Part shown: piece after piece, positions 16,109 to 44,927 of the stretch
Layout: each line of letters begins with the position of its first letter
Numbering within the stretch: position 1 is the first letter of the stretch
Source: Achromobacter deleyi
Lineage (GTDB): Bacteria > Pseudomonadota > Gammaproteobacteria > Burkholderiales > Burkholderiaceae_B
DNA: 64,000 nt
Assembly: GCF_016127315.1 (NCBI RefSeq)
Contig: NZ_CP065997.1
Coordinates: 434,001 to 498,000 of the forward strand
Direction of reading: 5' to 3'
Translations under genes and position numbers: made by a program
The notes under the pieces: generated by a model
The model's database searches: none
The model's input: the letters and a program-made list of their open reading frames with translations, nothing else
Told to the model about the DNA's origin: nothing

Positions 16109-17314
16109 ATGGCGAAGATCAAGCTCACCAAGTCCGCAGTCGATGCGGCAAGGCCCCAGGCGCAGGCCATCGAACTGCGGGATACCGTGGTGCCCGGCTT
16201 CCTGTGCAAGATCACCCCGGCGGGCCGCAAGGTGTTCATGCTCCAATACCGCACGAACGCGGGCGAGCGCCGCAAGCCCGCCTTGGGCCAGTATGGGGAA
16301 CTGACCGTCGAGCAGGCCCGCGTCATGGCGCAGGAGTGGCTGGCCGAGGTACGCCGGGGTGGCGACCCCAGCTCGGCCAAGAACGCCGCCCGAAAAGCTC
16401 CGACGATGAAGGAGTATTGCCACACCTTCATGGAGGACTATTCCAAGCAGCGCAACAAGCCCAGCACGCAGCGCGGCTATCAGGGGGTCATCGACCGTTG
16501 CATTATCCCGATCCTGGGACGGATGAAGGTGCAGGATGTGAAGCGCCCGGACGTGGCCGCGTTGATGAAGAAGCTGGCCTACAAGCCGGCCGAGGCGAAC
16601 CGCACCTTCGGCGTGCTGCGCAAGATGTTCAACCTGGCCGAAGTGTGGGGGCTGCGCCCGGACGGCACGAATCCGTGCCGTCACGTCCCGATGTATCCGC
16701 CGGGCAAGGAAACCCGGCTCATCGTGGACGATGAACTGGTGCGGATCTTCCGCCAGTTGGAGAAGCTGGAGGCGGAAGGGTTGGAGAACTACGTCACCCC
16801 ACTGGCGATCCGGCTGCAATTCGAGTTTGCGGCCCGGCGCTCCGAAATCTGCCCGCTCGAATGGAGCTGGATTGATCTGGAAAAGCGCCGCGTGGTGTGG
16901 CCCGACAGCAAGACCGGCGGCATCTCCAAGCCCATGAGCGAGGAAGCCTATCGGCTGCTGTCCACCGCGCCGCACCTGGAAGGCTGCCCCTACGTTCTGC
17001 CGTCACCCAATGACCCGAACCGGCATCTGACCCACGGCGAGCACTATGGCGGCTGGAAGCGCGTACTCAAGGCCGCTGGCGTGCCGCACGTCGGCACGCA
17101 CGGCATCCGCCATCGCTCGACCACCGACATTGCCAATTCCGGCGTGCCTACCAAAGTGGGCATGAAGCTGACGGGCCACAAGACCGTGGCGATGTTCATG
17201 CACTACGTCCACACCGAGGACAAGCCGGTGCGCGAGGCGGCCGAGCTGGTGGCCAGCCGGCGCCAAACGATCGTTGGCGCGCGACAGCGCCAGCCCCAGG
17301 AGGCCGTAGCATGA
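16109..17314 (+). CDS. int: Tyrosine-recombinase integrase of the ICE
   Basis: A 401-residue integrase. Residues 1-90 form the arm-type DNA-binding domain (KIKLTKSAVDAARP, LGQYGELTVEQAR), a SAM-like core-binding domain follows, and the catalytic domain carries Arg near 242 (AARRSEICPLEW), the HGIR box at 331-334, His in LTGHKT near 357, and the nucleophile Tyr in MHYVH near 366. It cuts and joins attP and attB for integration and, with an excisionase, excision. It is the first gene of the element and overlaps the DUF1016 gene by 4 bp. Confidence 0.95.
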   Translation: MAKIKLTKSAVDAARPQAQAIELRDTVVPGFLCKITPAGRKVFMLQYRTNAGERRKPALGQYGELTVEQARVMAQEWLAEVRRGGDPSSAKNAARKAPTMKEYCHTFMEDYSKQRNKPSTQRGYQGVIDRCIIPILGRMKVQDVKRPDVAALMKKLAYKPAEANRTFGVLRKMFNLAEVWGLRPDGTNPCRHVPMYPPGKETRLIVDDELVRIFRQLEKLEAEGLENYVTPLAIRLQFEFAARRSEICPLEWSWIDLEKRRVVWPDSKTGGISKPMSEEAYRLLSTAPHLEGCPYVLPSPNDPNRHLTHGEHYGGWKRVLKAAGVPHVGTHGIRHRSTTDIANSGVPTKVGMKLTGHKTVAMFMHYVHTEDKPVREAAELVASRRQTIVGARQRQPQEAVA

Positions 17315-27171: not shown

Positions 27172-27453
27172 ATGCGTCCCGCTCCCTTGCGGCCTGCCGC
27201 CGCTGTCTCGACCGCTGCCGCGCAGCCCCAACGCTATCTCACCAACGACGAAGCCGCCGACTACCTGCGCCTGTCGCCGCGCACGCTGGAAAAGCAACGC
27301 GTGATCGGCGGCGGCCCGCGTTTTCGCAAGTTCGGCCGGCGTGTCATGTACGCCGTGGCCGATCTCGATACCTGGGCGGCCGACCGCAGTTTCGAGACGA
27401 CTTCCGATCCCGAATACGCCGAGCAGCACTCGGCCGACAGCCGTGCGCGCTGA
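27172..27453 (+). CDS. Excisionase/AlpA-like HTH protein
   Basis: A 93-residue protein with a MerR-type winged HTH of the excisionase family (YLTNDEAADYLRLSPRTLEKQRVIGGGPRFRKFGRRVMYAVADLDTWAA, seen in parts). Such proteins bend DNA to steer integrase towards excision or act as regulators. It lies next to repA, 11 kb from int, so either role is possible. ATGGAGG upstream of the ATG at 27172 is the ribosome site. Confidence 0.75.
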   Translation: MRPAPLRPAAAVSTAAAQPQRYLTNDEAADYLRLSPRTLEKQRVIGGGPRFRKFGRRVMYAVADLDTWAADRSFETTSDPEYAEQHSADSRAR

Positions 27454-27467
27454 TCGGCGGCGCGCGG

Positions 27468-28313
27468 GTGGCCTCCGCCGTGTCCAAACCGTCGCAGGAG
27501 CGCGAACAGCTCGACCTGTTCCGCGCCTTGCCCGGCGACATGGCGCCGCGCGACAGCCAGGACTTGATGGCCTATCCGTTCTTCTCGCTCGGCAAGTCGA
27601 AGCGAGTCAAGCCCATCGACTTCCGTGCTGGCAACGTGACGATCCGCGTGGAAGGCACGCAGGAGCACGGCATCGCCACGATTTGGGATGCGGACATTCT
27701 CATTTGGGCGGCCTCGCAGATCGTGGAAGCCAAGGACGCAGGCTTGCGGCCGTCGCGGCTGATGCGCGCCACGCCCTACGAGATCCTGCGCTTCATCGGG
27801 CGCGGCAAGTCGCTGCGCGACTACCAGCGCCTCAAGGCCGCGCTGGATCGCCTGCAATCGACCACGGTGGCCACCTCCATCCGCGAGACGACGGGGCGGC
27901 GCCTGCATCGCTTTTCGTGGATCAACGAGTGGAAGGAACTGGCCGATGCCAGCGGCACGCCGCTGGGCATCGAGCTGATCCTGCCGGATTGGTTCTATGC
28001 GGGCGTGTTCGATGCGGCCCTGGTGCTGACCATCGACCCGGCGTACTTCCGGCTGACCGGCGGCATCGAGCGGTGGCTGTACCGCCTGGTGCGCAAGCAC
28101 GGCGGCAGGCAGGCGCACGGCTGGCAGTTCGACTTTCGCTACCTGCACCAGAAATCCGGCAGCACCGCGAAGCCCTACGACTTCGCCTGCGACCTGCGCG
28201 CGCTCGTCGCGCGGCAGTCGCTGCCCGGCTACGTCCTGGGTATCGAGCGGATGTCGGACAACGGCATGGAGCTGCTGACCTTCCGGCCCGTGCCGCAAAC
28301 GGCACGGGGATAA
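27468..28313 (+). CDS. repA: Replication initiator protein A
   Basis: A 281-residue initiator of the plasmid RepA type (DUF-like 'replication initiator protein A'), with the sequence LDLFRALPGDMAPRDSQDLMAYPFFSLGKSKR at its start and YRLVRKHGGRQAHGWQFDFRYLHQKSG in the C-terminal winged-helix part. It begins with GTG 15 bp after the HTH gene. Immediately downstream are three direct repeats and an AT-rich segment, the layout of an iteron origin. RepA-driven replication of the excised circle would help the ICE survive cell division. Confidence 0.88.
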   Translation: MASAVSKPSQEREQLDLFRALPGDMAPRDSQDLMAYPFFSLGKSKRVKPIDFRAGNVTIRVEGTQEHGIATIWDADILIWAASQIVEAKDAGLRPSRLMRATPYEILRFIGRGKSLRDYQRLKAALDRLQSTTVATSIRETTGRRLHRFSWINEWKELADASGTPLGIELILPDWFYAGVFDAALVLTIDPAYFRLTGGIERWLYRLVRKHGGRQAHGWQFDFRYLHQKSGSTAKPYDFACDLRALVARQSLPGYVLGIERMSDNGMELLTFRPVPQTARG

Positions 28314-28337
28314 CTCCGGGAGAGCCTGTGGATGGTG

Positions 28338-28401
28338 TCGTGCTATCAGGCGTGCGGAGTATCGTGCTATCGGGCGTGGGACTATCGTGCTATCAGGCGT
28401 G
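28338..28401 (+). repeat. Three iterons of a putative origin
   Basis: The 17-bp unit TCGTGCTATCAGGCGTG occurs at 28338-28354, 28362-28378 (one change, A to G) and 28385-28401. Spacing is 24 and 23 bp, about two helical turns, so RepA would bind the same face. The array starts 25 bp after the repA stop codon. Confidence 0.85.
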
Positions 28402-28445
28402 CCGATCGGCCGCAAACCCGCGCCAGCATTGGGTTTGCGCGCCCT

Positions 28446-28475
28446 CTAACTTCCCTAACTTAATTTCTCTAACTT
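28446..28475 (+). other. AT-rich repeats, candidate DNA unwinding element
   Basis: Three CTAACTT repeats at 28446, 28455 and 28469 in the only clearly AT-rich stretch nearby, 45 bp after the iterons. This is the usual position of an unwinding element in iteron-type origins. Together with 28338-28401 it forms a candidate oriV. Confidence 0.6.
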
Positions 28476-28602
28476 TTAGTAGAGCAACGCCGCTGCGGTG
28501 GACAACCACCATGCGGCCAGAAACGGCAGGCAATCTCAGCCACCAGATAACAGGTTTTGCAGGCGAATCGAAGCAAGGCTTTCCAGCTTGGAGGGCCGCG
28601 CC

Positions 28603-29241
28603 ATGATCGTCGCTCTGCTGAACCAAAAAGGCGGCGTGGGCAAGACCACGCTCGCCACGCACATTGCCGGCGAGCTGGCGATGCGGGGGCAATCGGTGAT
28701 CCTGCTGGACGCCGACCCACAGGGTTCATCGCTGGACTGGACACAGCGCAGAAGCCAGCAAGGCTTGCCACGGCTATTCAGCGCCGTGGGCCTCGCACGC
28801 GAAACGCTGCACCAAGAGGCACCAGAACTCGCCAGACGGGCTGATCACGTCGTCATCGACGGGCCGCCCAGGATCGCCGCCTTGGCGCGCTCCGCGCTGC
28901 TGGCGGCCGAGCGCGTGCTGATCCCGGTGCAGCCCAGCCCCTACGACCTGTGGGCCAGCGCCGAGATGGTGGCGCTGATCCGCGAGGCGCAGGTGTTCCG
29001 GCCGCTGCTCCGCGCGGCCTTCGTCATCAATCGGCGCGTCAGCACCACGGTGATCGGGCGCGAAGCGCGCCAGGCGCTCGCCGACCAGCCGCTTCCTGCG
29101 CTGCGCTCGGAAGTGCATCAACGCATCGTGTTCGCCGACAGCGTGGCCGCTGGTCGGCTTGCACGCGAGACGGCGCCTGACAGCGCCGCCGCGCTCGAAA
29201 TCACCGCCCTGGTGGATGAACTGCTGCGGTGGCCGACATGA
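28603..29241 (+). CDS. parA: ParA-family partition ATPase
   Basis: A 212-residue ParA/MinD-type ATPase with deviant Walker A (NQKGGVGKTT, residues 7-16), Walker A' (LLDADPQGSSLDW) and Walker B (VVIDGPPR) motifs. It is the short ParA form without an N-terminal HTH. It positions or segregates replicating DNA on the nucleoid. The ATG has a TTGGAGGG site. The downstream RHH gene overlaps it by 4 bp and is the probable centromere-binding partner. Confidence 0.93.
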   Translation: MIVALLNQKGGVGKTTLATHIAGELAMRGQSVILLDADPQGSSLDWTQRRSQQGLPRLFSAVGLARETLHQEAPELARRADHVVIDGPPRIAALARSALLAAERVLIPVQPSPYDLWASAEMVALIREAQVFRPLLRAAFVINRRVSTTVIGREARQALADQPLPALRSEVHQRIVFADSVAAGRLARETAPDSAAALEITALVDELLRWPT

Positions 29242-29522
29242 CAGCAAAGCCGCCACCGAACAGCAAACGCGCAGCAAAGCGCGTCGGCATCGGCGCGCGT
29301 CCGCCTGCGAATCCGCACGCAGAAGCGTGGATTCGGCAGGGTGACGCCGATGCGCTGGGCAAGGGCGACTTCTACACCGCCCGCCTGACCCTCGACATCA
29401 CGCCCGCCATGCGGGCGCGCATCAAGGTGTCGGCCTTCACGCAAGGCGTGACCGTGGCCGACCTGCTGCGCGGCCTGCTGGAGCGCGAGTTTTCAGAACA
29501 CCGCAGGGAGAACACGCCATGA
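29238..29522 (+). CDS. Ribbon-helix-helix ParB-like partner of ParA
   Basis: A 94-residue protein starting in an ATGA overlap with parA. The basic N-terminus (KPPPNSKRAAKRVG) is followed by an RHH fold (ARLTLDITPAMRARIKVSAFTQGVTVADLLRGLLEREF, seen in parts). Small RHH proteins after a short ParA are typical centromere-binding and autoregulatory proteins. The tight coupling supports this role. Confidence 0.75.
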   Translation: MTAKPPPNSKRAAKRVGIGARPPANPHAEAWIRQGDADALGKGDFYTARLTLDITPAMRARIKVSAFTQGVTVADLLRGLLEREFSEHRRENTP

Positions 29523-30660: not shown

Positions 30661-31112
30661 TGGGCGCCGATTCACTGCGCGTCATCGTGCTATCAGGCGT
30701 GCCAGTCCGGTGGCTTTCCACGTGTCGTCGCGCGTGCAGTGCGGGTGCATTCGCACCGCGCCTCGCGCTGCCTTCGGCGCAGCCGTCCAACGTGCAGGCG
30801 TCTTGCCTCGAACGCGCCTGGGCTGCGGCCCTCATCGCGCTGGTCTGCGCGTTGGCCGGCGCGCTGGCTGCAAGCAGCGCAGCGCCGCCGGGCCGCCGAC
30901 GCCCGGAGCGACAGCGAGGGGCAAAGGCGGAAGGCAAGACAAAAGGGGGCGGCACCTGTCGGCCCGCAAAGCCAGTCTGCACGTGGGGGTGGCGCGGCAC
31001 GGCGCGGCTTCGCCGCCGTGCCGCTGGGGGCGCGTGGCCCGCGCCGATACAGACATGTCCGCGTGCTTTGCACGACCGGACACGCCGGAGCTTGCAGGGA
31101 GCGCAGCCATGA
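30657..31112 (+). CDS. Uncertain small ORF between traF and relaxase
   Basis: A 151-codon frame that overlaps traF by ATGA at its start and the relaxase gene by ATGA at its end, the same coupling used by the genuine neighbours. It predicts one hydrophobic helix (AWAAALIALVCALAGALAA) and an Arg-rich tail. Against it: biased, low-complexity composition, no recognised family, and the region also contains an iteron copy and two strong inverted repeats, which suggest non-coding control DNA. I rate it as possible only. Confidence 0.35.
   Translation: MMGADSLRVIVLSGVPVRWLSTCRRACSAGAFAPRLALPSAQPSNVQASCLERAWAAALIALVCALAGALAASSAAPPGRRRPERQRGAKAEGKTKGGGTCRPAKPVCTWGWRGTARLRRRAAGGAWPAPIQTCPRALHDRTRRSLQGAQP
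30685..30701 (+). repeat. Isolated fourth iteron copy
   Basis: An exact copy of TCGTGCTATCAGGCGTG, 2.3 kb from the three copies at the origin, with neighbouring bases ATCG... and ...CC also shared. It lies 24 bp after the traF stop codon. Confidence 0.8.
30994..31082 (+). other. Two strong inverted repeats upstream of the relaxase: candidate oriT
   Basis: First stem GCGGCACGGCG (30994-31004) pairs with 31014-31024, 11 bp without mismatch. Second: TGTCCG+CGTGC (31056-31066) pairs with GCACG+CGGACA (31070-31082) around TTT with a 2-base bulge. They end 27 bp before the relaxase start. Relaxases often sit next to their oriT, so this is a fair candidate; no nick consensus is identified. Confidence 0.4.
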
Positions 31113-36999: not shown

Positions 37000-37015
37000 A
37001 TTACATGAATGTAAT
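37000..37015. promoter_or_regulatory. Cop box (CopR operator)
   Basis: ATTACATGAATGTAAT is a perfect 16-bp palindrome centred between copR and copA. It matches the cop-box pattern known upstream of copper operons controlled by CopR/PcoR-type regulators. A half site TGTAAT lies at 36963-36968. Position fits activation of copA and of copRS. Confidence 0.75.
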
Positions 37016-37139
37016 CCAAGGGTCATTCATCCGAAAGTGGTCACTCCATAGCATGACCTCCATGCGTCGAACCGTGCCGCCCAAGACCAAAGGCGGCTCT
37101 AAAGACGACTTTCAAGTTATCTATGGAGGATTTCAGGCC

Positions 37140-39041
37140 ATGCCGCCTCGTTCGCCCTTTGTAATCGCGCCCCCACTGGGCCTGTCTCGTCGGCGTTTTG
37201 TTCAGGGGCTGGCCGCTGGCGGCGTCCTGGCCGGGCTGTCCACCCCGGCGCTCAGGGCATTTGCCCAACAAGGCTCCGCGACGCGCGGTGCCGCCCCTGT
37301 GCTGAAGGGCACCGAGTTCGACTTGGTGATCGCCGAATCGCCCGTGAACTTCACGGGCAAGCCAGGCGTGGCTACGACCATCAACGGCTCGCTGCCGGCA
37401 CCGACATTGCGTTGGCGTGAGGGTGACACCGTCACAATCCGTGTGACCAACAAGCTGCGTGAAGCCACATCCATCCACTGGCACGGGATCATCCTGCCGT
37501 ATCAGATGGATGGCGTGCCGGGCATCAGCTTCAATGGCATCGCTCCCGGCGAGACCTTCACGTACCGCTTCAAGGTTCAGCAAAGCGGCTCCTACTGGTA
37601 CCACTCGCACTCCGGCTTCCAGGAACTCACGGGCATGTACGGGGCGATCATCATCGACCCCGCTGGTGCCGAGACCATCCGCGCCGACCGTGACCACGTG
37701 CTGCTGTTCTCGGATTGGACCGACGAAGACCCGATGCGGGTGTTCACCAAGCTCAAGTCCCAAAGCGGCTACTACAACTACAACCAACCTACCGTCTTCG
37801 ACTTCTTCCGGGACGCCTCGCGCGACGGCATGGCCGCTGCGATCGACAAGCGCAAGATGTGGAACGAGATGCGGATGAATCCGACGGATCTCGCCGATCT
37901 GTCTGCCGCCACGCTGACCTATCTGGCCAACGGCGTCACCCCCGCCGGCAATTGGACGGCGCTGTTCCGACCGGGTGAGCGCGTGCGGCTGCGCATGGTC
38001 AACGGTGCGGGCAACACCTTCTACGACGTACGCATTCCCGGACTGAAACTCACGGTGGTGCACGTCGATGGTGTTGACATGGAGCCGGTGACGGTCGATG
38101 AGTTCCGATTCGGTCCGGGCGAAACCGTCGATGTGATCGTCCAGCCACGGGATGACGCTTACACGATCTTCGCCCAGGCGATGGACCGGACAGGCTACGC
38201 GCGGGCCACGCTGGCCGTGCGTGAAGGTCTTCAAGCTCCCGTGCCTGCCCTCGATCCGGTCGAATGGCTGACCATGAACGACATGATGGGCAGCATGATG
38301 GGGGGCATGGACCACGGCGGGTCCGGCCAAGCCATGGAGATGACGGGCATGACGGGCATGACGGGCATGACCGGGATGACCGGGATGGGCTCGGGTTCGA
38401 TGTCCGGGATGGATCATGGGGCGATGGCTGGCATGAATCACGGCGCCATGAACCACGGTGGCATGGCGATGGATCACAGCCAACACGCCGCGGCGGCGGG
38501 GGGACTGGCCGTGCCCAGCACTACTGCTCGCCACGCTCGCACCGAGTATGGTGCCAGCACGGACATGCGCGTTGACATGGCGCGCACCAACCTCGATGAC
38601 CCCGGCATCGGACTGCGCAACAACGGTCGGCGAGTGTTGACCCTCGCGGATCTGCATACCCCGTCGGGGCCGCTGGACAAGAGAGGCCCTGGCCGGGAGG
38701 TCGAACTGCACCTCACGGGCAACATGGAACGCTACGCATGGTCCCTGGACGGGCTGGAGTTCGGAAAGTCCACGCCGGTGCACTTCAAACACGGCGAGCG
38801 GCTGCGGGTCATTCTGCACAACGACACCATGATGACCCATCCCATGCACCTGCACGGCATGTGGAGCGAGCTGGAAAGCCCCGACGGTCGCTTCCTTGCG
38901 CGCCGCCACACCCTGCCGGTGCAGCCGGCACAACGCATCAGCTTCCTGGTGACAGCCGACGCGCTCGGCCGCTGGGCGTGGCACTGCCACCTGATGTTCC
39001 ACATGGATGCCGGCATGTTCCGCGAAGTCGTGGTGTCTTGA
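37140..39041 (+). CDS. copA: CopA, periplasmic multicopper oxidase
   Basis: A 633-residue multicopper oxidase of copper-resistance operons. The Tat signal is LSRRRFVQGLAAGG. Copper ligands are HWHG (113-116), WYHSHSG, and at the C-terminus HPMHLHGMW and HCHLMFHMDAGM. A central region rich in Met and His (MNDMMGSMMGGMDHGG, then five MTG units, then MNHG/MDHS motifs) is the copper-storing segment. It oxidises or sequesters Cu(I) in the periplasm. The start at 37140 follows GGAGG; upstream in-frame ATGs would disturb the Tat signal. Confidence 0.95.
   Translation: MPPRSPFVIAPPLGLSRRRFVQGLAAGGVLAGLSTPALRAFAQQGSATRGAAPVLKGTEFDLVIAESPVNFTGKPGVATTINGSLPAPTLRWREGDTVTIRVTNKLREATSIHWHGIILPYQMDGVPGISFNGIAPGETFTYRFKVQQSGSYWYHSHSGFQELTGMYGAIIIDPAGAETIRADRDHVLLFSDWTDEDPMRVFTKLKSQSGYYNYNQPTVFDFFRDASRDGMAAAIDKRKMWNEMRMNPTDLADLSAATLTYLANGVTPAGNWTALFRPGERVRLRMVNGAGNTFYDVRIPGLKLTVVHVDGVDMEPVTVDEFRFGPGETVDVIVQPRDDAYTIFAQAMDRTGYARATLAVREGLQAPVPALDPVEWLTMNDMMGSMMGGMDHGGSGQAMEMTGMTGMTGMTGMTGMGSGSMSGMDHGAMAGMNHGAMNHGGMAMDHSQHAAAAGGLAVPSTTARHARTEYGASTDMRVDMARTNLDDPGIGLRNNGRRVLTLADLHTPSGPLDKRGPGREVELHLTGNMERYAWSLDGLEFGKSTPVHFKHGERLRVILHNDTMMTHPMHLHGMWSELESPDGRFLARRHTLPVQPAQRISFLVTADALGRWAWHCHLMFHMDAGMFREVVVS
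38340..38384 (+). repeat. 9-bp tandem repeat in copA (MTG units)
   Basis: Five copies of a 9-bp unit (three ATGACGGGC, two ATGACCGGG) encode MTGMTGMTG... in the Met-rich part of CopA. Perfect repeats of this type can change copy number by slippage without a frameshift. Confidence 0.8.
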
Positions 39042-39066
39042 ACCCAGCGCACAAGGAAGACCAAGA

Positions 39067-40047
39067 ATGTCCAAAGCACTCCCCACTCGCGCACTGGCCA
39101 CGACGCTTCTGGCCCTGGTAAGCGTCGCCGCCCAGGCACAAGCACAGAACGACCATGCAGCGCACGGCCAGGCCGACGCTCAAACGGCCGCGCCATCCAC
39201 TCAGACCGTGGCTCCTGCCGCCGACCCGCACGCGGGTCACGCGACGTCGGCGAGCGGCTCGACCGCGGCCCCGGCCATGGATCACGGCAACATGCAGATG
39301 CAGGGCGGGTCGGCGCCTCCTGACGCCCGCGATCCGCATGGCTACTCCAATGGCCTGACATTGGGATCGGGCGACTACGCCGTACCCGGTGTGCCGCGGC
39401 TGATGCTGGCCGACGAACACAGGTTCTTCTCGTTGCGCGGCGAAACCCTGGAACGCCGCTTCACGCGCAAAGGGGACGATTCCACGGCCTACAACCTCCA
39501 GGCTTGGTATGGGACGACCTACAACAAGGCCGTCGTGAAGGCCGAAGGCGATATCGCCAAAGGAAAGCTCGAAAAATCGCGTACCGAGCTTCTCTGGGGG
39601 CACGCCGTCGCACCGTACTGGGACACCCAGCTCGGCGTTCGGGTGGATAACGGAAAAGGCCCGAGCCGTCAATGGTTGGCTTTCGGCATCCAGGGCCTCG
39701 CCCCCTACTGGTTCGAGCTGAAGGCGACGGGCTACGTGGGAAGTGGCGGACGTACGGCGCTGCGTGTCGAAGGCAGCTACGAGCTGCTGCTGACCCAGCG
39801 ACTGATTCTGGAGCCTCGTGCCGAATTGCAGTTCTATGGCAAGGACGACCCGGAACGCGGTATCGGCAAGGGCTTGGCCGAAGCGTCTGCTGGCTTGCGC
39901 CTGCGCTATGAATTCAGTCGCCAGTTCGCCCCCTACATCGGCGTGGAACGGGCGGGCAGCTTCGGACGCACAGCGGACTATGTGCGTGCCGAAGGTGGCC
40001 GCGCGCAGCAGACGCGCTGGGTGGCTGGCGTGCGATTCTGGTTCTAG
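39067..40047 (+). CDS. copB: CopB, outer-membrane copper-resistance protein
   Basis: A 326-residue protein with a signal peptide (MSKALPTRALATTLLALVSVAAQAQA) and a His/Met-rich linker (HAAHG, HAGHAT, MDHGNMQMQ), then the CopB/PcoB beta-barrel domain (AWYGTTYNKAVVKAEGD, ELLWGHAVAPYWDTQLGVR, and a C-terminal aromatic GVRFWF end). It is thought to allow copper movement across or storage at the outer membrane together with CopA. It follows copA by 25 bp. Confidence 0.93.
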   Translation: MSKALPTRALATTLLALVSVAAQAQAQNDHAAHGQADAQTAAPSTQTVAPAADPHAGHATSASGSTAAPAMDHGNMQMQGGSAPPDARDPHGYSNGLTLGSGDYAVPGVPRLMLADEHRFFSLRGETLERRFTRKGDDSTAYNLQAWYGTTYNKAVVKAEGDIAKGKLEKSRTELLWGHAVAPYWDTQLGVRVDNGKGPSRQWLAFGIQGLAPYWFELKATGYVGSGGRTALRVEGSYELLLTQRLILEPRAELQFYGKDDPERGIGKGLAEASAGLRLRYEFSRQFAPYIGVERAGSFGRTADYVRAEGGRAQQTRWVAGVRFWF

Positions 40048-40084
40048 AACCTTGTGGGTTTGATCATCTGATGAGAGGCAATCT

Positions 40085-40570
40085 ATGAACATGCACTACG
40101 ACAGAAGCCAGGGCAAAGTGCCGAGACGCCAAGCATTGATCGCTGGCTTGTTGGTGATGGCACTCGCAGGACCGAGCCTGGCGCAGAGCCGACCGATCGC
40201 CAAGGTGTGGAAGGACCCGAGCTGCGGTTGCTGCAAGGACTGGGTCTCACACCTGCAAGGCGCAGGCTTCGATGTGCAGGTTCTTGACACCGGGAACACG
40301 GCAGCGCGCACGCGGCTGGGCATCCCGCAGAAGTACGGTTCGTGCCACACGGCGCAGATCGGCGGCTATGCCATCGAGGGTCATGTGCCTGCCTCGGACA
40401 TTCAACGCTTGCTGCGCGAAGCCCCGCAGGCCATCGGCCTCGCGGCGCCGGGCATGCCGGTCGGTTCGCCCGGCATGGATGGTCCGGCCTATGGTGGACG
40501 CAAGGACGCCTACGACGTGCTGCTGATCGGGAAAAACGGTAGTAGCACGGTCTATCAGTCGCATCTCTGA
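40085..40570 (+). CDS. DUF411 metal-binding protein (copper island)
   Basis: A 161-residue exported protein: basic start, hydrophobic stretch (ALIAGLLVMALAGPSLA), then the DUF411 core with VWKDPSCGCCKDWVSHL and YGSCHTAQIGGYAIEGHVPASDI. The CxCC and CH groups suit Cu(I) binding. The family is regularly found in copper and silver resistance islands (sometimes called CopG), probably as a periplasmic metal chaperone. Confidence 0.88.
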   Translation: MNMHYDRSQGKVPRRQALIAGLLVMALAGPSLAQSRPIAKVWKDPSCGCCKDWVSHLQGAGFDVQVLDTGNTAARTRLGIPQKYGSCHTAQIGGYAIEGHVPASDIQRLLREAPQAIGLAAPGMPVGSPGMDGPAYGGRKDAYDVLLIGKNGSSTVYQSHL

Positions 40571-40603
40571 CCATCCATCAACTCTTTTCCGTGGAGATAT
40601 GCC

Positions 40604-40876
40604 ATGCAGCATCAGCACACACAGACCCCCAGCGATCGTCCCCGGTTCTGGCGATCGCGCTACGGCGTGGCGTTCCTCATCATCGCCGCTGTCGCCGCGT
40701 ATTTCCTGCTCAAGGAGCACACGGCACATGTTGCCGGCTATCTCCCCTTCCTGCTGCTGGCGGCTTGTCCGCTGATGCACCTGTTCATGCACCGTGGTCA
40801 CGGCCACGGCGGACACGATCATGCCGCGCGTCAGGGTGAGGAAGGTGCCGCACCCGCCAAGGAGCAGAAGCAATGA
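40604..40876 (+). CDS. DUF2933 small membrane protein
   Basis: A 90-residue protein with two membrane helices (YGVAFLIIAAVAAYFLL and AGYLPFLLLAACPLMHLFMH) and a His-rich tail (HRGHGHGGHDHAA). It matches DUF2933, found in copper and heavy-metal operons; His residues probably bind metal. It lies between DUF411 and the Cu ATPase gene. Stop codon is followed at once by a perfect 31-bp palindrome. Confidence 0.85.
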   Translation: MQHQHTQTPSDRPRFWRSRYGVAFLIIAAVAAYFLLKEHTAHVAGYLPFLLLAACPLMHLFMHRGHGHGGHDHAARQGEEGAAPAKEQKQ

Positions 40877-40907
40877 GTCGCGTGCTCGCACAGTGCGAGC
40901 ACGCGAC
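40877..40907 (+). repeat. Perfect 15-bp inverted repeat in the copper operon
   Basis: GTCGCGTGCTCGCAC, a single central A, and the exact reverse complement. It begins at the base after the DUF2933 stop codon. There is no T run after it, so it may be an mRNA stabiliser or processing site that sets different levels for the two halves of the operon. Confidence 0.8.
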
Positions 40908-40988
40908 GCCGCGCTTGTCTCCTTGCGCGCCTGCGGCCTGCTGCGATCACCAGACACCAACGGTTAACGGCGGAGGGCACTTGTCACT

Positions 40989-43469
40989 ATGAATTCACCC
41001 AGCAAGTCTTCAGGACATGAGCACGCAGGCATGGCGGCGGGTGCCACAACGTCCGGCCCGCATAAGCACCACCATCACGCCAGCCATGCCGGCAGTGACG
41101 ACGCGGGCGGGTCCTCAAGCCACTCGCAGCCCGATGCCGCGACGCGCGATCCGGTGTGTGGCATGGCGGTCACGGCGGCGTCGGAGCACCGCTCCACGCA
41201 CTTGGGGAACACGTACTTGTTTTGCAGCACCGGATGCAAGGCCAAATTCGACACCGATCCGGCGCGATATGCCAGCGGTGGCGCGGGCATAGGCACAGGC
41301 AGCGGCCATGCGCCGCATCACCATGCCAGCACCGCAGTTTCACCGGCCCCGGCGGCATCGCCAACCGCACCCGGAACGATCTACACCTGCCCGATGCACC
41401 CGGAGATCCGCCAGGATCATCCGGGAACCTGCCCCAAGTGCGGGATGACGCTGGAGCCCCTGCTGCCCGACCTCGACGACGACAACCCGGAGTTGCGTGA
41501 CTTCTCGCGTCGCTTCTGGTGGACCTTGCCGTTGACGCTCGTGGTCCTGGCGCTGGCGATGCTGGGCGAGCGGCTGCACCTGATGGACATGGCTACGCAG
41601 AGCTGGGTCGAGTTGGTGCTGTCGTTGCCGATCGTGCTGTGGGCCGGCTGGCCCTTCTTCTCCCGCGGCTGGCTGTCCGTGGTCAACCGCAGCCCGAACA
41701 TGTGGACACTGATCGGCCTGGGAACGGGTGCGGCATTCATCTACAGCGTCGTGGCAACCGTTGCGCCGGAAGTGTTTCCAGCCTCCTTCATGTCCATGGG
41801 ACGGGTCGGCGTGTATTTCGAGGCCGCCGCCGTCATCATCTCGCTGACACTGCTCGGCCAGGTGCTGGAACTCAAGGCCCGCTCCCAGACTTCGGCGGCT
41901 ATCAAGTCGCTGCTGGGGCTGGCGCCCAAGACCGCGCGGCGCATCAATGCGGACGGCAGCGAGGAAGACGTGCCGCTCAGCCATGTGCACGTCGGCGACC
42001 TGCTGCGCATCCGACCCGGCGAGAAGGTGCCGGTGGATGGCATCGTGCACGAGGGCAGCAGCTCGATTGACGAATCCATGCTGACCGGCGAACCGCTGCC
42101 CGTCAGCAAGCGCGCGGGCGACAAGGTCATCGGGGCCACACTCAACACCAACGGCGCGCTGGTCATGCGTTCGGAGCGGATCGGCTCGGACACCGTTCTA
42201 TCGCAGATCGTCCAGATGGTCGCCCAGGCGCAGCGTTCCAAGGCACCGATGCAACGCATGGCCGATGTCGTTGCCGGCTACTTCGTGATGGCCGTCGTCG
42301 CCATTGCGGTCACGACGCTCTTTGTATGGGGATTCTTCGGGCCACAGCCCACCTGGGTCTATGGACTGATCAATGCGGTGGCCGTCCTGATCATCGCCTG
42401 CCCGTGCGCGCTGGGTCTGGCCACGCCGATGTCGATCATGGTCGCAACGGGCCGTGGCGCCACGCAGGGCGTGTTGTTCCGCGATGCCGCGGCGATCGAG
42501 AATCTTCGCAAGGTCGATACCCTCGTCATCGACAAGACAGGAACCCTGACCGAAGGCCGACCTGCTTTCGATCAGGTCGTCGCAGCACGCGGCTTTACGA
42601 ACGATGAGGTGCTGCGTCTTGCGGCCAGCCTGGACCAGGGCAGTGAACACCCCCTGGCCGACGCCATCGTGCAGGCCGCGCGTGCCCAGGGCCTCCAACT
42701 CGTGAAGCCTCAGAGCTTTGAATCGGGAACCGGCATCGGCGTGCGCGGAAAGGTTGAGCACCGGCAACTGGCGTTGGGCAACACAGTGCTGATGGAACAG
42801 TCTGGCGTATCGGTGGAACCGCTCGTACCCCAGGCCGAAACTCTGCGCGGCGAAGGGGCCAGCGTCATGTACTTGGCTGTGGACGGGCAACTCGCGGGTT
42901 TGCTCGCCGTATCCGACCCGGTCAAGGGCAGCACCCCCGAGGCCCTGGCCGCGTTGAAGGCTGCGGGCCTGCGGGTCATCATGGCCACCGGGGACGGGCA
43001 GACCACCGCCAAAGCCGTCGGTGCACGCCTAGGCATCGACGAGGTGCATGGTGAGGTCAAGCCGGCGGACAAGCTCATGTTGATCGAGCGGCTGCAGAAA
43101 GAAGGCCGCATCGTCGCCATGGCCGGAGACGGCATCAACGACGCGCCGGCCTTGGCGAAGGCAGACGTGGGCATCGCCATGGGAACGGGAACCGACGTGG
43201 CGATGAACAGCGCTCAGGTCACGCTGGTCAAGGGCGACCTGCGTGGCATTGCTGTCGCTCGCACGCTCTCGGTGAGTACCGTGGGCAACATGAAGCAGAA
43301 CCTCATGTTCGCCTTCCTCTACAACGCGCTGGGCATCCCCATCGCCGCCGGGGTTCTCTATCCCCTCACGGGCTGGTTGCTGTCGCCCCTGATCGCAGCA
43401 TTGGCGATGAGCCTGAGTTCGGCATCGGTCGTGGGCAACGCCTTGCGGCTGAGAGCGAGCCGACTGTGA
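40989..43469 (+). CDS. Cu(+)-exporting P1B-type ATPase
   Basis: An 826-residue copper pump. The N-terminus is His-rich, then a YHS domain ([17 protein letters not shown].. [10 protein letters not shown], about 54-96), a heavy-metal-binding [22 protein letters not shown] module (from 132), then the ATPase: TGE loop (MLTGEPLP), CPC in [13 protein letters not shown] (near 470), phosphorylation site DKTGT (near 516), and [20 protein letters not shown]. It has no HMA domain, which marks the CopF/silP-like branch of resistance islands. It exports Cu(I) from cytoplasm to periplasm. Confidence 0.93.
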
Positions 43470-43609
43470 CCGAAACATCTTTCAGAACCAACAGGAGTCT
43501 GCTATCGCCCAGCGAACCGTTTCTTTCGTTCCACGCCGTTGCGAAGGTGCAAGCCTTATCTCGGCATTTCGTTCTTAAACCACCCTCACACATCAAGGTA
43601 GGAATCTCT

Positions 43610-43996
43610 ATGACCCGTTCACATTTCATCGCCAAGCTCGTCGCGCCGATCGCTGCTGGCCTGTTCGCCACCGCCGCATTCGCGCATCCTTCGCTGGTGT
43701 CTTCAACGCCGGCCGACAAGTCGCAGGTTTCCGCGCCAGCCACCATCGAGCTGAAGTTCTCCGAAACGCTGGTGCCGCAGTTCTCCGCCGCAAGCCTTGT
43801 CATGACGGGCATGCCGGGAATGGCGAGCCATGGCCCGATGAAGATCAACGCCAGCGTCGCGGGTGCCGGCGACGGCAAGACCATGGTCATCACGCCGGCA
43901 CAAGCGCTCCAGCCGGGCGACTATCGCGTCGAATGGCGTGCCGTCTCCTCGGACACGCATCCGATCACGGGTAACGTCACCTTCAAGGTGAAGTAA
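43610..43996 (+). CDS. copC: CopC, periplasmic copper-binding protein
   Basis: A 128-residue protein with a signal peptide ending AAFA, so the mature protein begins with the conserved His (HPSLVSSTPADKSQV). The Met-rich MTGMPGMASHGPM loop and the C-terminal SSDTHPITGNVTFKVK are typical of CopC/PcoC. It carries copper in the periplasm, probably to CopD. The ATG at 43610 follows AAGGTAGGAATC; the longer open frame lacks family character. Confidence 0.93.
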   Translation: MTRSHFIAKLVAPIAAGLFATAAFAHPSLVSSTPADKSQVSAPATIELKFSETLVPQFSAASLVMTGMPGMASHGPMKINASVAGAGDGKTMVITPAQALQPGDYRVEWRAVSSDTHPITGNVTFKVK

Positions 43997-44000
43997 GCCC

Positions 44001-44927
44001 ATGGCCGGGGATTGGTTGACCATCGTCCTGCGCCTGGCGCTTTATCTGGACCTGGCGGCGGCGTTTGGCGTCGCCATGTTCGGACTCTATGCTTTGGGCA
44101 ACGACGAGCGATCCTCGACGATCTCGCGCCGCTATCGCGTACTCATTGGCGCATCCGCCGCCATCGGCATTGTCCTGTCGATGTGGGGCATGACGGTCAT
44201 GGCCAAGGCCATGTCCGGCGCCCAAAGCTACGCGGAGCTGTCAACGCACGTTTTCGACATGCTCATTACGGGCACGCACATGGGCATCGCCTGGTGCATT
44301 CGCATCCTGGCGTTAGTGACGTGTGTGCTCATCGCCGTGTTGCGCATGAATTCAACACTGCGTTTTGCAGCGATGGCCGCTTCCAGTGGTGTGGCGTTGG
44401 CGACCCTTGCATGGGCGGGACATGGCGCCATGGATGACGGCGTGCGCGGATACATTCATCTCGCTTCGGACATCACGCACCTCTGGGCGGCCGGTGCCTG
44501 GGTAGGCGCATTGATCGCGTTCTTGGTGCTTGCGGCGAACAAACCAAATACCGGGCAAGGCTCAGTAGAGATCCTGAGCCGAACATCCAATGGTTTCGCT
44601 CGGATAGGTACTATGATCGTGGCGGCACTCGTCGTGACCGGAGCCCTGAATTACCTGTTGATCGCTGGGCCATCGCTTGATCCGCTCTTCTCAACGCTCT
44701 ATGGCCGCCTGCTCGTAGGAAAACTCCTGTTGTTCGGAGGAATGCTCGCGCTGGCGGCAGCCAATCGGTTTCGACTGAGCCCAAGTCTGGAAGCGGCATT
44801 GAGAACAGGCAACCACGCACACGCGGTCGTCAAGCTACGGCAGAGTCTGTTCACGGAGGCGACATTAGCCGTTCTGGTTTTGGCGAGCGTTGCGTGGCTT
44901 GGCATCCTTTCTCCCAACGGCACCTAA
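44001..44927 (+). CDS. copD: CopD, inner-membrane copper protein
   Basis: A 308-residue membrane protein with about eight helices, starting 4 bp after copC. His and Met residues lie in helices, for example GTHMGIAWCIRI, AWAGHGAMDDG and HLASDITHLWAAGAWVG. CopD/PcoD proteins are thought to pass copper from CopC to the cytoplasm or to metallation of CopA. It is the last gene of the main operon before an IS3 element. Confidence 0.92.
   Translation: MAGDWLTIVLRLALYLDLAAAFGVAMFGLYALGNDERSSTISRRYRVLIGASAAIGIVLSMWGMTVMAKAMSGAQSYAELSTHVFDMLITGTHMGIAWCIRILALVTCVLIAVLRMNSTLRFAAMAASSGVALATLAWAGHGAMDDGVRGYIHLASDITHLWAAGAWVGALIAFLVLAANKPNTGQGSVEILSRTSNGFARIGTMIVAALVVTGALNYLLIAGPSLDPLFSTLYGRLLVGKLLLFGGMLALAAANRFRLSPSLEAALRTGNHAHAVVKLRQSLFTEATLAVLVLASVAWLGILSPNGT

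Follow-up and report, generated by a model that had tools for sequence, protein, structure and literature searches.

Does an integrative and conjugative element (ICE) lodged in a bacterial chromosome carry a plasmid-type origin of replication of its own? The question is raised by a 64,000-nucleotide stretch of Achromobacter deleyi DNA (contig NZ_CP065997.1, positions 434,001 to 498,000; hereafter the window), which holds an integrated ICE with a Tn4371-type backbone, a class assigned from its backbone genes and not from its integrase or attachment (att) site. An initial annotation of the window had described three 17-bp repeats at 23-24 bp spacing and an AT-rich stretch with three CTAACTT copies between the initiator gene repA and the partition gene parA, and had likened this arrangement to a plasmid vegetative origin (oriV). 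Both sets of repeats are present as described, and the likeness to a plasmid origin is borne out by co-variation between RepA and the repeats and by the same layout in related small plasmids. We consider it very likely that positions 28320-28510 are an iteron-type oriV of the ICE, bound by RepA with help from DnaA, from which the excised circle is copied. The case is built on the repeats, the AT-rich element, the DnaA-like boxes, the adjacency of repA to the excisionase gene rdfS, the co-variation and the plasmid-like layout.

Layout of the candidate origin and its initiator

The three direct repeats (iterons) read TCGTGCTATC[A/G]GGCGTG and begin at 28338, 28362 and 28385, with start-to-start spacings of 24 and 23 nt. 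The triplet is unique in the window, and none of 60 first-order Markov randomised windows contained one in a search for a 17-mer with two further downstream copies, each step being 17-60 nt and at most one mismatch being allowed. The CTAACTT copies follow at 28446-28452, 28455-28461 and 28469-28475, and all of these repeats sit between repA and parA (Table 1); the interval annotated initially, 27468-28480, spans repA as well as the origin. The locus has two features of an iteron-type oriV: a set of direct repeats, each about 17-22 bp long and spaced by about two helical turns, and, beside them, an AT-rich element with short repeats. A DnaA-box-like motif, absent from the initial annotation, stands on either side; both motifs in the window fall short of what we take to be the full consensus, though they are conserved among loci. 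The arms of an inverted repeat between the iterons and the AT-rich part are present in 85 of 142 loci, versus 22 of 142 after shuffling, in a direct search for the arms. By eye, the loop of this inverted repeat (28411-28439) seemingly occurs in both orientations among relatives, as GCGCCAGCATT and AATGCTGGCGC types. GC skew shows no clear turn at the origin.

RepA matches the RPA family (PF10134) over the entire profile (1-228 of 228) with 295.6 bits against a cut-off of 27, and its AlphaFold2 model (predicted local distance difference test score, pLDDT, 71; predicted template-modelling score, pTM, 0.66) has domains 2-3 of RctB as nearest structural neighbours, then a complex of Rep, iteron and DNA unwinding element (DUE) and RepE, the resemblance to RepE-iteron complexes being weaker than that to RctB. 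As modelled, RepA is a tandem winged-helix initiator of the RctB/RepE type, in which residues 236-249 are predicted to be the recognition helix, followed by a hairpin wing. Its GTG start is taken as listed; many relatives align only from residue 6-8.

Co-variation between RepA and the iterons

The last four nucleotides of the repeats switch together between elements, appearing as CGTG, AGTA or CAAC, and residue 241 of RepA follows them: Cys, Tyr and Ala go with the three tails in 81, 43 and 19 loci, respectively, with agreement in 143 of 143. Each locus was classed by its commonest tail, CGTA being counted as CGTG, AGTG as AGTA, CAAA as CAAC and CGCG as CGCA; all recognised copies were identical in their tails in 135 of the 143 loci, and 8 had one variant copy. 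In total, 155 of 168 RepA-bearing loci could be classed, the 12 beyond the three large classes being CGCA (8), AACC (2), CAGG (1) and GACC (1), while the 13 unclassed loci have another front half (L097, L232-L236) or a RepA at 32-35% (L237-L243). The 143 loci include near-duplicates reached through two collections, so counts made on trees weigh more than the raw count. On a repA tree (FastTree, repA codons 10-220, 143 rows), the class changed at least 16 times, and independent pairs agree in 6 of 6 and 7 of 7 cases. That the repeats and one part of RepA have changed together strongly suggests that the initiator binds the repeats and that the site is in use.

The part of RepA concerned is narrow. 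The five columns most informative about tail class (0.83-1.37 of 1.37 bits) all fall inside residues 233-241. Mere linkage between gene and site was rejected as the cause of the match because synonymous repA codons carry little information on the tail (regional means of 0.03-0.14 bits and 0.30 at the largest single site, with only three such sites inside 233-241). It is also contradicted by the position of the peak: columns 242-281 are nearer the iterons yet less informative. The co-variation therefore lends strong, if indirect, support to binding of the iterons by the cognate RepA.

The same comparison bears on a different role for the repeats, as the partition centromere (parS) of ParA and the small ribbon-helix-helix (RHH)-like protein encoded after it. 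The array does lie upstream of parA, and such centromeres often stand just upstream of type Ib par operons. A type Ib centromere would co-vary with its partition proteins and be absent without them, whereas tail class has no more than 0.17 bits in common with any ParA column and 0.22 bits with any RHH column, against 1.37 for RepA, and changes 29 times on a parA tree (137 rows), as opposed to 16 times on the repA tree. Four loci (L096, L244, L251 and L252) keep the array and the AT-rich part although the interval from repA to the DUF2840 gene yielded neither parA nor an RHH gene; the stretches of L251 and L252 are only 2.3 kb, and a par locus may lie elsewhere in those records. In L244 and L252, the search pattern picks out a single iteron, the remaining two having been read by eye. 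On three plasmids (L099-L101), moreover, the ParA gene is upstream of repA and the array downstream. Given the low co-variation and the arrays kept where neither gene was found, we rejected the partition-site explanation, which we regard as extremely unlikely.

The match between residue 241 and tail also holds in RepAs kept out of the comparison above. These were 39 distinct proteins, each at least 78% identical and carrying Cys, Tyr or Ala at 241, different from every training row after about residue 20, although many differ little from those rows. They came from further genomes and plasmids (L246-L249, L254, L255, L258-L329; 70 of 74 listed places taken), with plasmid L248 and others identical to training rows left out of the count. 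Arrays had at least two iterons with the known front half, and tails were scored exactly. Every iteron matched its class in 34 arrays and the majority did in 36, for 105 of 115 iterons. Two arrays were mismatched in all three repeats, L271 (Tyr, with three CGTG) and L258 (Cys, with CGCA, CGTA and CGTA), and three in part, namely L320 (Ala, with CAAC, CCAC and CACA) and L291 and L292 (Tyr, with CGTG, AGTA and AGTA). L271, L291 and L292 thus pair a Tyr241-type RepA with CGTG in all iterons or in the first. The arrays of L291 and L292 look like products of recombination inside the array, and the apparent junctions in or near the array in all three loci perhaps mark elements in mid-switch.

Further iteron types appear with more distant initiators. 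Outside the main clade, Leu or Arg goes with CGCA/CGCG and Phe with AACC; Tyr in another helix context goes with GACC (L096), and mixed arrays occur at 75-77% RepA identity. By eye, L322-L329 and L232-L236, whose RepAs are more distant, have more types with other front halves (e.g., TCGGGGTTTTAGGCGCA and TCGGTGGATCGCCCGCA). L232-L236 combine a changed front half (TCGGGGTTTTAGG) with a CGCA tail and a helix that have stayed alike, and this separation hints that the two iteron halves may be read by the two winged-helix domains. In the first of these domains, R117D separates five loci with a GGGGTTT front from six sisters; two sphingomonad plasmids with a similar front carry Lys and Arg at this position, and R117D is only a hint at a front-half determinant.

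An exact copy of the 17-bp iteron also occurs at 30685-30701, between traF and the relaxase gene, and a like site, often TCGTGCCATCGGGCGTG in relatives, is kept by 107 of the 132 loci from the three large classes whose DNA extends far enough (66/75, 27/40 and 14/17). We rejected it as a fourth RepA iteron. None of 27 AGTA loci has an AGTA tail there and none of 14 CAAC loci a CAAC tail, so the site does not follow the RepA class; it could belong to the transfer origin (oriT) or a leader.

Conservation of the module and its relatives

Three iterons at exactly 24 and 23 nt are found in 78 of 80 genome-collection loci, which are the best RepA matches among the matches listed. The two exceptions are L057, with two iterons 28 nt apart, and L086, with two by the strict pattern and a visible, diverged third copy. 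The AT-rich part has three or four TAAC in 139 of 140 loci (mean 3.11, versus 0.22 after shuffling), TGTGnAY stands at most 20 nt before iteron 1 in 135 of 140 (0.7% in shuffled segments), and GGTGGAYAA or TGTGGAYAA is present in 110 of 140 (0.1% in shuffled segments).

These counts help to weigh two further explanations of the array. RepA might bind the iterons purely to regulate the parA-tra operon or its own supply, the ICE having lost origin function. Iteron initiators often also act as regulators, the array is placed upstream of the parA operon, and RepA binding alone would yield the same co-variation. A plain operator, however, needs neither AT-rich repeats nor DnaA-like boxes, so their conservation argues against a purely regulatory role, as does the resemblance of the whole module to those of small plasmids; we find such a role unlikely. 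Alternatively, the module may be an unused relic of a plasmid ancestor, the excised ICE being copied only from oriT by its relaxase. The element does encode a relaxase (589 bits to the RlxS profile, below the cut-off of 850), and relaxase-driven copying has been reported for ICEBs1 and SXT/R391 (PMC4489591, excerpts). Unused DNA would not, however, keep its spacing or change class jointly with RepA at least 16 times on the repA tree, and we hold a relic to be very improbable. OriT-driven copying may nonetheless take place in addition to copying from the oriV.

From the third TAAC to the parA start (28476-28602 in the window), the length modulo 3 does not vary among 137 of 140 loci. Between the GGTGGAYAA-type box, where found (110 of 140), and the start, the parA frame is interrupted by a stop in only 8 loci. 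This stretch is perhaps a translated leader or a ParA extension. In L095 and L225, the repA frame continues through the iterons and AT-rich part to the parA start.

Among plasmids, the closest counterparts are the RPA-type plasmids of sphingomonads and Roseomonas mentioned above (L099-L101; 40-43% RepA identity), which carry iterons at 22-23 nt, TAAC repeats and TGTGGATAA boxes 3' of repA; they differ in being plasmids, in having parA 5' of repA and in having four to six iterons. The plasmid records of L100, L101 and L102 (32-52 kb) hold one RPA gene and no Rep_3 match, in a search that covered only these Rep families. The following comparisons draw on excerpts of published work. In pPDL2, an RPA-type sphingomonad plasmid, a repA-oriV mini-replicon is reported to replicate; the pPDL2 origin was reported upstream of repA (PMC3516476).

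Iteron origins in integrative elements are already known, SGI1 having nearly the same layout, and this ICE would add another case. The experimentally supported oriV of SGI1 lies immediately 3' of rep in a module adjoined by xis, with 17-bp GC-rich iterons, a DnaA box and an AT-rich region with three short repeats (PMC7433901). It differs in having four iterons of another sequence and a Rep that is implied to be of the RepA_C kind, and SGI1 is mobilisable, not self-transmissible, and needs an IncC helper plasmid for replication (PMC7433901). ICEHin1056-like islands, with pKLC102 and PAPI-1, have a predicted oriV with iteron-like repeats in an AT-rich region (PMC2258188). For SXT/R391 ICEs, replication of the excised element and an active partition system are reported, but copying is described from oriT by the relaxase and not from an iteron oriV (PMC4489591). 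Blurring of ICE and plasmid is already in print for other elements (PMC4489591, PMC7433901), and Colombi 2021 describes a gene of Rep_3 type located between rdfS and traF and raises the possibility that elements alternate between existence as an ICE and as a plasmid (PMC8627217). Tn4371-family ICEs share the order excisionase, repA, parA and transfer genes, and Ryan 2009 noted that their repA is possibly involved in replication (PMC2789088); the words "oriV" and "iteron" are absent from its text. This origin in Tn4371-type ICEs was not found in the literature searched, though Toussaint 2003 (Tn4371) may hold an earlier mention, and neither were RepA-iteron specificity classes.

Proposed function and element context

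RepA binding, DnaA help, unwinding, timing with excision and copy number are what we infer from these observations. RepA would bind the three iterons as a two-domain winged-helix protein, the second winged helix (recognition helix about 236-249) reading the final four bases of every iteron. With DnaA assisting from the flanking boxes, RepA would open the element with the CTAACTT repeats, and the excised circle would start theta-type copying at the oriV. In all 153 loci that reach far enough upstream, the rdfS-like excisionase gene lies directly 5' of repA and on the same strand; two further loci are too short to tell. Because of this adjacency, RepA supply may be timed with excision, and the oriV is probably switched on with it. 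RepA made when the element is switched to excise would allow the circle to be copied and held until transfer or reintegration. The excised ICE would then replicate, and it may also be partitioned, as the initial annotation had supposed.

We also put forward, with somewhat less than even credence, that ICEs with this backbone form replication-specificity groups with a short code in the RepA recognition helix, switched by incompatibility selection. At least six iteron types (CGTG, AGTA, CAAC, CGCA/CGCG, AACC/GACC and several with other fronts such as TCGGGGTTTTAGGCGCA) would define these groups, and the 16 or more switches would have come about partly through recombination that leaves chimaeric arrays. 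Switching would pay because circles with the same specificity would compete with or handcuff one another after excision, and such selection, if true, only makes sense if ICEs live partly as replicons. Avoidance of like classes within genomes was not significant (12 of 63 like pairs versus 16.4 expected; P 0.12), so we offer it as a hypothesis that incompatibility drives the switching of classes.

If such ICEs do use a dedicated oriV for replication, they are plasmids that have a refuge in the chromosome, and one would expect plasmid rules to govern how they persist and coexist. Typing by replication specificity would become possible with the RepA-iteron classes, which also turn an old guess about the role of repA (PMC2789088, excerpts) into something that natural alleles can test, through binding and copy number. 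In the host's family, elements with this RepA are common: a relative (E <= 1e-20, distant ones included) is present in 56 of 268 genomes, with 4 to 7 in each of six (G221, G236, G336, G264, G328 and G346), and the host genome, a single 6.99 Mb contig, has three copies of repA with the array. Viral contigs hold two RepA relatives.

Table 1. Features of the candidate origin and adjoining genes (positions in the window)
Feature	Position	Strand	Remarks
rdfS-like excisionase (HTH_17)	27172..27453	+	Pfam HTH_17 8.8e-10; "excise" domain under its cut-off; ATG 27172 likely, open reading frame list has TTG 27127
repA, RPA-family initiator	27468..28313	+	281 aa; GTG start; PF10134 3.2e-88
DnaA-box-like TGTGGAT, just 5' of array	28327..28333	+	
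Iteron 1	28338..28354	+	
Iteron 2	28362..28378	+	position 11 G instead of A
Iteron 3	28385..28401	+	
Inverted repeat CGCAAACCC / GGGTTTGCG, between iterons and AT-rich part	28411..28439	.	
AT-rich presumed unwinding element, three CTAACTT	28446..28480	+	29% GC versus 66% for the window
DnaA-box-like GGTGGACAA, after AT-rich part	28497..28505	+	
parA, ParA family partition ATPase	28603..29241	+	NF041546 5.7e-78; ATG 28603, GGAGGG at 28590
Small RHH-like protein, possible ParA partner	29229..29522	+	RHH_10 2.2e-4, under Pfam cut-off

The assignment to the Tn4371 family rests on a backbone of excisionase, repA, parA, a DUF2840 protein, a TraF-like peptidase, a relaxase, traG and trb genes, the transfer genes extending to about 60256; the peptidase and relaxase match the TraF_Ti and RlxS profiles under their curated cut-offs. 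A tyrosine recombinase is encoded at 16109-17314, adjoining chromosome-type genes. No convincing att repeat was seen, and the Tn4371 att 8-mer, in the sequence we take it to have, is absent from the element's ends. Between the relaxase gene and traG, the ICE carries copper-resistance cargo (37005-44927) encoding a multicopper oxidase, CopB, a metal ATPase, CopC and CopD.
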